Positions 51,324-59,919 of a stretch of DNA of 64,000 bases are shown piece after piece (positions within the stretch are counted from its first letter, which is position 1; each line of letters starts with the position of its first letter). The notes under the pieces were generated by a model that did no database searches, was not told where the DNA came from, and saw nothing but the letters and a program-made list of their open reading frames with translations. A program made the position numbers and the translations under genes. Source of the stretch: Xylogone sp. PMI_703 (taxonomy: Eukaryota > Ascomycota > Leotiomycetes); assembly GCA_021399445.1 (NCBI GenBank), contig JAJTUQ010000001.1, positions 3,162,001-3,226,000 on the forward strand, written 5' to 3'.

Positions 51324-51410
51324 TGATTGATGCAGGGATCGAACCTGCGACCTTTTCCGAGTTTCTAAGAAACTGTAAAGGAAACGTGATAACCACTACA
51401 CTAATCAACC
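51324..51410 (-). tRNA. tRNA-Val (UAC) with 14-nt intron
   Basis: On the minus strand the acceptor arms GGTTGAT and ATCAATC pair over seven bases, the D stem is GTG/CAC, the anticodon stem TTTCC/GGAAA and the T arm GCAGG-TTCGATC-CCTGC. The loop reads TT-TAC-A, then a 14-nt intron (51360-51373) at the standard 37/38 site, then C. Without the intron the tRNA is 73 nt. A run of five T follows on the coding strand at 51314-51318 as Pol III terminator. Confidence 0.93.
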
Positions 51411-59759: not shown

Positions 59760-59910
59760 GGGGCGATAGCTCAGTTGGTAAGCGACCTCAACTCATCAGA
59801 AACGGAATGTGTTATTAACAATCTCACCAGGGAGAGCGTCAGACTGAAGTAAAACTTCATTCTATCAGATAGATATCTGAAGGTCACCGGTTCAATCCCG
59901 GTTCGTCCCA
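59760..59910 (+). tRNA. tRNA-Phe (GAA) with anticodon intron and a 53-nt D-loop insert
   Basis: Acceptor arms GGGGCGA and TCGTCCC pair over seven positions (one G-T). D stem GCTC/GAGC, anticodon stem TCAGA/TCTGA, loop CT-GAA-G..A and T arm ACCGG-TTCAATC-CCGGT are all intact. A canonical 25-nt intron lies at 59850-59874, between positions 37 and 38; its ACTTCA can pair with the anticodon region, as in normal tRNA introns. A second insert at 59778-59830 splits the D-loop. Removing both leaves 73 nt. The A box (TAGCTCAGTTGG, 59767-59778) and B box (GGTTCAATCCC) remain, and a T6 terminator follows. It could be a working gene that needs two kinds of splicing, or a disrupted copy. Confidence 0.85.
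59778..59830 (+). other. spliceosomal-intron-like insert in tRNA-Phe D-loop
   Basis: The 53-nt insert begins GTAAGC, has ATTAAC with its likely branch A 12 nt before the end, and ends CACCAG. Length and motifs match the mRNA introns of neighbouring genes (mostly 47-86 nt). Only this register obeys GT-AG, and it restores the exact D-loop AGTTGGGA. It is not at the standard tRNA intron site. An alternative is cleavage by the tRNA endonuclease, since AGTTG before the insert can pair with CAACT at 59789-59793. Confidence 0.75.
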
Positions 59911-59913
59911 TTC

Positions 59914-59919
59914 TTTTTT
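59914..59919 (+). terminator. Pol III terminator of tRNA-Phe
   Basis: Six T in a row, four bases after the discriminator A of the tRNA. Confidence 0.8.

Follow-up and report, generated by a model that had tools for sequence, protein, structure and literature searches.

Candidate spliceosomal introns across the nuclear tRNA genes of the ascomycete Xylogone sp. PMI_703

In Xylogone sp. PMI_703, a tRNA-Phe(GAA) gene contains, besides an ordinary intron at 37/38, an insert of 53 nt in the D-loop that is best read as a U2-type spliceosomal intron in a gene transcribed by RNA polymerase III (Pol III), one of no fewer than 29 that occur across at least 26 tRNA genes; from the sequences, we give this reading a probability of about 0.92. 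The gene lies in the window, the whole stretch of 64,000 nt that was analyzed. That the D-loop insert goes beyond chance is confirmed, since three of the four tRNA-Phe genes are interrupted at the same site and 23 further tRNA genes have the same architecture; the phenomenon is far larger than first noted. The parts of the window gene are as follows.

59760..59910, + strand: nuclear tRNA-Phe(GAA) gene with two introns; the joined exons measure 73 nt and ARAGORN reads them as Phe(GAA)
59760..59777, + strand: exon 1, with the 5′ strands of the acceptor stem and D-stem and the D-loop through G18 (numbered by eye)
59778..59830, + strand: GT-AG (spliceosome-type) intron of 53 nt at 18/19, GTAAGC...CACCAG; L002 and L003 have inserts at the same site
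59778..59783, + strand: 5′ splice site GTAAGC, read from the sequence
59814..59819, + strand: ATTAAC, branch-point-like, with the proposed branch A at 59818, then 12 nt to the intron end
59831..59849, + strand: exon 2, with the rest of the D-arm, the 5′ strand of the anticodon stem and the anticodon GAA through position 37
59850..59874, + strand: canonical 37/38 tRNA intron of 25 nt; with the GT-AG intron taken out, ARAGORN reports an intron of this length
59875..59910, + strand: exon 3, from position 38 through the discriminator base
59889..59899, + strand: uninterrupted B box GGTTCAATCCC, an internal Pol III promoter element
59914..59919, + strand: run of six T, a Pol III-type terminator, 3 nt past the gene

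The two inserts, of 53 nt and 25 nt, lie within 59760-59910 as originally predicted, and GTAAGC, ATTAAC 12 nt from the end and CACCAG are all present (TTAAC is the second commonest branch-like motif of the catalogue described below, after CTAAC). The joined exons had been called flawless; their length and the ARAGORN assignment stand, but by eye there is one G4-U69 wobble pair. That no register but GT-AG restores the D-loop goes too far as a claim: GG..CA, GT..AG and TA..GG are equally good, so that GT-AG is allowed and not forced, and against the diverged copy L004 a fourth register has an equal mismatch count. Because of this ambiguity at the window site, the evidence had to come from other copies.

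In the proposed route, the A and B boxes would direct Pol III transcription of the window gene. The spliceosome would then recognize GTAAGC, branch at A59818 and join 59777 to 59831, which would restore the D-arm. Excision of the 37/38 intron, by Sen endonuclease and tRNA ligase, would come last. By the A-box consensus, the first G of GTAAGC completes the GG that ends the A box. Within the 25-nt intron, CTTCA is able to pair with TGAAG of the anticodon region (by eye). ARAGORN recognizes nothing in the unspliced gene; on the 64-kb window it returns zero tRNAs, missing even the ordinary tRNA-Val(TAC) that Rfam detected at 51324-51410 on the minus strand (with a 37/38 intron of 14 nt). The minimum-energy structure predicted for the unspliced precursor lacks the native D-arm and has instead a 3-bp stem with the intron AGC (of GTAAGC); in this predicted fold, AGC pairs with the 5′ strand of the D-stem and thereby mimics a D-arm (59769-59783). 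The centroid structure leaves the D-arm region open.

The genome searched is the assembly of Xylogone sp. PMI_703, a member of the Leotiomycetes, alone (50.1 Mb, 25 contigs). A DNA search recovered four tRNA-Phe genes: the window copy, L002 (contig C20), L003 (C23) and L004 (C19). L004 has the 37/38 intron only, with an uninterrupted D-loop. The other three have D-loop inserts at one common site, of 53 nt in the window copy (GTAAGC..ATTAAC..CAG), 54 nt in L002 (GTAAGC..ACTAAA..TAG) and 52 nt in L003 (GTATGT..GCTAAC..TAG), the branch motifs being chosen by eye. Their exons are 94.5–100% identical, against 54–66% for the three inserts.

The same architecture recurs throughout the genome. The catalogue comprises at least 29 GT-AG inserts of 49–64 nt (median 55 nt) in at least 26 tRNA genes, at the 11 positions listed here (numbered by eye).

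Phe: 18/19, three genes
Pro-AGG: 19/20, two genes
Pro-AGG (L045): 14/15 and 32/33, two GT-AG inserts and a 19-nt insert at 37/38, one gene
Pro-TGG: 21/22, one gene (its 37/38 intron is 14 nt)
Thr: 21/22, four genes
Leu-TAA: 26/27, two genes
Leu-CAA: 30/31, three genes
Leu-AAG: variable arm, four genes, two of these with a second insert at 18/19
Ile-AAT: 26/27, two genes
Elongator Met (L142, CAT): 16/17, one gene
Arg-ACG: 31/32, one gene
Arg-TCT: 25/26, two genes

Two GT-AG introns occur in each of Pro-AGG-3, Leu-AAG-3 and Leu-AAG-4. None of the 29 inserts interrupts the acceptor stem or the T arm, and none is at 37/38 (positions by eye; the window insert is at 18/19). From position 14 to the T arm is the range that holds all catalogued sites, which leaves the B box uninterrupted in every case. 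By the A-box consensus, the first G of the introns at 18/19 is the one needed to complete the A box, and the introns at 14/15 and 16/17 lie inside it.

The catalogue was compiled by eye with the target known beforehand, from 80 stretches that were either tRNA-like by eye or matched by Rfam. They came from patterns combining a B box with a T run and from an Rfam search. Two such patterns gave 84 places (24 in the reversed control) and 75 places (93 in the reversed control); two further ones contributed genes among the matches listed of 268 and of 151. In the Rfam tRNA search of the genome, 63 of 1824 candidates were scored and the best 57 of the 63 used. A pattern for D-loop inserts matched twice in Phe and twice in Pro-AGG, with a single match for the reversed control. 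The census omits the weak Rfam matches C19:7489993 and C19:7490833 and is not exhaustive; isotypes such as Asp, Val-AAC and Gly-GCC did not appear. Five loci were left out of the 29: L077 and L078 (no AG), and L140, L102 and L096 (degraded look).

With respect to the boundaries, 16 of the 16 inserts that have an uninterrupted reference in the same genome (8 sites) permit the GT..AG register, the placement being made by mismatch counting alone with 1–6 registers per insert and a chance of about 0.0023 per register. The other 13, bounded by the cloverleaf, permit it as well (29/29 in total). In L077 and L078, two Arg-ACG loci (G000:C1, 6.08 Mb), GTAAGT and TTAAC are kept and, at the only cloverleaf-compatible boundary (by eye), the ends are TG and CG instead of AG. 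The anticodon stem of L077 is still complementary by eye, and this copy may have lost its 3′ splice site recently or may use an unusual one. L102 (C19, 7.29 Mb) is an Arg-ACG fragment. L140 (G000:C20, 5.69 Mb) is Leu-like but degenerate, its 5′ part being truncated and followed by GTTAGT; by eye it is probably a dead interrupted copy.

The inserts have the signals of fungal mRNA introns. At the 5′ end, GTAAGT occurs in 11 of 29, GTGAGT and GTTAGT in 4 each, GTAAGC in 3 and other sequences in 7. The 3′ ends are TAG (15), CAG (12) or AAG (2). A YTRAY motif is found 5–36 nt before the end in 28/29 (mean of 2000 shuffles 11.1, maximum 21) and CTAAC in the branch window in 15/29 (shuffle mean 2.1). 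The best branch motif is CTAAC in 14/29 and TTAAC in 7/29; it is weak in Arg-TCT-2 and Phe-2, and its distance to the 3′ end is 9–15 nt in 27/29. For fungal introns, passages of PMC5832005 give the branch consensus RCTRAY and a distance of 6–36 nt from branch to 3′ site. The catalogued inserts thus display sequence features of the U2 type: GT..AG ends, fungal 5′ site and branch consensus, and a short distance from branch to 3′ site.

Inserts at such positions could also be ectopic tRNA introns of the kind that the tRNA splicing endonuclease removes at bulge–helix–bulge (BHB) motifs in Cyanidioschyzon and Crenarchaeota. Many of the interrupted genes also hold 37/38 introns, and the spectrum of positions (D-loop, 25/26, 30/31, variable region) resembles that of the BHB introns described in parts of PMC4090602. 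In a loose test, a 4-bp match between exon and intron is found in 8/29 (20 placements each), but this is near the chance level, which we estimate by hand at about a third. When a 4-bp central helix between two 3-nt bulges is demanded (a geometry applied to the GT-AG register only), the pairing is complete in 1/29, about what chance would give. Moreover, BHB introns would not be expected to share constant GT..AG ends, branch motifs and a uniform length, so that we regard endonuclease cleavage of these inserts as very improbable.

The reading as spliceosomal introns is also in keeping with the spliced products. With all introns removed, ARAGORN gives the assigned isotype for 24 of the 26 interrupted genes (the 37/38 boundaries in this set being those assigned by us). 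The remaining two reflect our own assignments: L142, entered as Ile-TAT, is an elongator Met with one 5′ T too many, and in Pro-TGG the 37/38 cut was 1 nt too long. With the GT-AG introns alone removed, the correct anticodon is obtained in 20/26, against 3/26 for the unspliced genes; as ARAGORN misreads even the uninterrupted Ile-AAT with its 37/38 intron left in, the program is no clean judge of 37/38 introns.

Once spliced, several paralogues are letter-identical: the three Pro-AGG, the four Leu-AAG, the two Arg-TCT, Phe-1/2, Thr-1/4 and Ile-2/3. Two interrupted Thr-AGT genes become identical to the uninterrupted form, and one interrupted Ile-AAT gene to the uninterrupted one. Between exon-identical copies, the introns are 45–70% alike (different-site pairs included; random baseline 49%), except for Thr-1/4, whose introns are 90% alike. 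Identical exons beside diverged introns are expected if selection acts on the spliced product.

Such conservation speaks against a second explanation, in which the interrupted genes are pseudogenes struck by short insertions and the tRNAs are supplied by other copies. Arm insertions in eukaryotes have been taken as pseudogenes, mostly in one of many synonymous genes, in the sections of PMC4090602 that deal with them, and a few loci of the present genome (L078, L102, L140) have a degraded look, with L077 and L078 lacking AG. Some families do have uninterrupted genes, namely Phe (1), Thr (2), Ile-AAT (1) and elongator Met (2), so that the interrupted copies are dispensable there. The original prediction had allowed for a dead copy beside intact tRNA-Phe genes, and on that point half was borne out: L004 is one uninterrupted gene among four. 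Hence tRNA-Phe alone cannot prove that splicing is necessary.

The dead-copy reading does not explain the isoacceptors that are found only as interrupted genes. The census contains 68 uninterrupted tRNA genes of the genome itself (73 ARAGORN rows minus 5 from phage) and the 26 interrupted ones. The ARAGORN names of several were fixed by eye: L085 is Leu-TAG, L129 Leu-CAG, L091 Glu-TTC, L033 Arg-TCG, L049 elongator Met, L132 Ile-AAT, and L079 and L122 are Tyr. Among the 68, in this non-exhaustive census, there is no Pro-AGG, Pro-TGG, Leu-AAG, Leu-CAA, Leu-TAA, Arg-ACG or Arg-TCT, and all four proline genes found are interrupted. Direct genome searches for an intact copy yielded none for Pro-AGG, Leu-AAG, Arg-ACG or Leu-CAA-2. 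These searches are insensitive to fragments or diverged copies (that with Leu-AAG missed two of the four known genes and that with Leu-CAA-2 both other Leu-CAA genes); an uninterrupted identical match should be easier to detect than the copies missed. With seven isoacceptors lacking an uninterrupted gene in this census, and with splice motifs common to the inserts, we hold the pseudogene explanation to be no more credible than BHB cleavage.

Maturation of the interrupted tRNAs, including those of the isoacceptors found only interrupted, therefore probably needs the mRNA-splicing machinery. It seems to us very likely from the sequences that spliceosomal introns have spread across the nuclear tRNA repertoire, so that the spliceosome would be needed to read several codon families, namely those served by all proline genes found and by Leu-AAG, Leu-CAA, Leu-TAA, Arg-ACG and Arg-TCT, and would be needed twice in some genes (Pro-AGG-3, Leu-AAG-3 and -4), with Sen cleavage next where a 37/38 intron exists. 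A spliceosomal-type D-loop intron beside an ordinary tRNA intron, with mixed processing, as first proposed for the window gene, is the best-supported reading.

Pol III terminates at T runs. Runs of four T occur in 2 of the 29 tRNA introns (shuffle mean 7.1), against 5 of 12 mRNA-type introns predicted in the window via a related motif, a small sample with lengths of 49–117 nt (Fisher p 0.016). Runs of five T occur in 0/29 (shuffle mean 2.0), against 1/12 in the same set. This scarcity fits transcription by Pol III. Downstream, a run of four or more T follows within 2–13 nt in 26/26 interrupted genes, which is largely selection, most having been found by the pattern of B box and T run. Splicing by the spliceosome as a rule goes together with Pol II transcription, and the signals might belong to a longer Pol II RNA rather than to the tRNA, but the downstream T runs (selected as they largely are), the lack of T5 in the introns, the exact joining of the exons into a tRNA and the presence of the same introns in U6 make this even less probable than the two preceding alternatives.

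The U6 genes of the same genome offer the closest parallel to the proposed spliceosomal introns. The U6 model gave 10 matches, one above the curated cut-off, and the best two of the 10 were parsed. L159 (G000:C20:2705914) has one GT-AG intron of 53 nt, and L160 (G000:C21:3523655) has three, whose lengths are 52, 51 and 54 nt; the 5′ site of one, GTTCGC, is weak. The branch motifs are 10–15 nt from the intron end, and the spliced products are identical, with 95 nt. The mRNA-type introns that the original prediction mentioned for some fungal U6 genes are present here as well. With U6 and tRNA introns alike in length and layout, a route from Pol III to the spliceosome plausibly operates in this fungus.

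Teaching sets nuclear tRNA introns apart as a class of their own, excised by a protein endonuclease and a ligase, and the mRNA-splicing machinery has no known part in the maturation of tRNAs. The window gene has a canonical 37/38 intron of this class (Sen endonuclease, Trl1 ligase), placed one nucleotide past the anticodon, as well; the 53-nt insert, in contrast, sits elsewhere, has GT-AG ends and a branch motif, and breaks the D-arm.

mRNA-type introns are known in the U6 snRNA genes of Schizosaccharomyces pombe and other fungi, as parts of PMC5832005 report. The tRNA inserts resemble them as short GT-AG introns with a branch motif in a small structured RNA made by Pol III; unlike U6, itself a part of the spliceosome, the host RNAs here are tRNAs, from several isoacceptors, and in many of them the same transcript contains a Sen-type intron as well. 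Fungal U3 snoRNA genes likewise have GT-AG introns of the normal kind, which in some cases differ among paralogues; there too the host is a small non-coding RNA (PMC5832005), but a single one and no tRNA. In 2017, the same source stated that, of the small structured RNAs, only U3 and U6 were known to contain introns often. Ectopic tRNA introns of Cyanidioschyzon, the Guillardia nucleomorph and Crenarchaeota also occupy the D-arm, the anticodon stem and other positions, with up to three per gene; according to portions of PMC4090602 and PMC3978253, they are bounded by BHB motifs or, in Guillardia, are 3–24 nt long, whereas the present inserts have mRNA splice signals and no excess of BHB.

We found no earlier description of spliceosomal introns in nuclear tRNA genes in the open-access PMC literature, a scope outside which most subscription papers and all preprints lie. 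The available text of PMC4090602 contains no occurrence of “spliceosom”; the account of tRNAscan-SE 2.0 describes, in the part available, noncanonical intron detection for archaea (PMC8450103); PMC4125763 concerns protein genes; and the available portions of PMC13130702 and PMC13148404 treat ordinary tRNA genes only. Spliceosomal introns are already known, and so is their presence in U6, a Pol III product; as an intron class of nuclear tRNA genes they appear to be new within the literature searched. Searches for relatives in viral contigs gave no fungal tRNA (28 stretches in one scan, none with a B box downstream), and those in bacterial and archaeal genomes matched one bacterial record and no fungal tRNA.

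If the proposed reading is true, one precursor would pass through two unrelated splicing systems and the boundary between intron classes would be crossed at large scale. Failure of the spliceosome would then entail the failure of whole isoacceptor families, and translation capacity would be directly coupled to spliceosome activity. It would become possible to test by what means short Pol III transcripts, with exons that can be as short as 5–18 nt, are found by the spliceosome, how introns colonize structured RNAs, and whether other fungi have genes of this kind that tRNA gene finders miss.

As to the origin of the inserts, the catalogued introns give no sign of a recently dispersed mobile fragment: same-site paralogues are mostly well below 80% alike, and those of different isoacceptors reach about 69% at best. 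A family of introners (mobile introns) would be marked by many near-identical copies and by target-site duplications. A 5-nt direct repeat, such as a target-site duplication would leave, flanks two D-loop introns only, those of the Leu-AAG genes L086 and L120, and allows six equivalent registers.

Two Thr genes, L095 and L113 (G000:C12, 4.218–4.220 Mb), have anticodons CGT and TGT on a body that is otherwise Thr-AGT, with a GT-AG intron. By eye, they have an acceptor-stem mismatch and may be dead; the uninterrupted Thr pair is located about 25 kb away.
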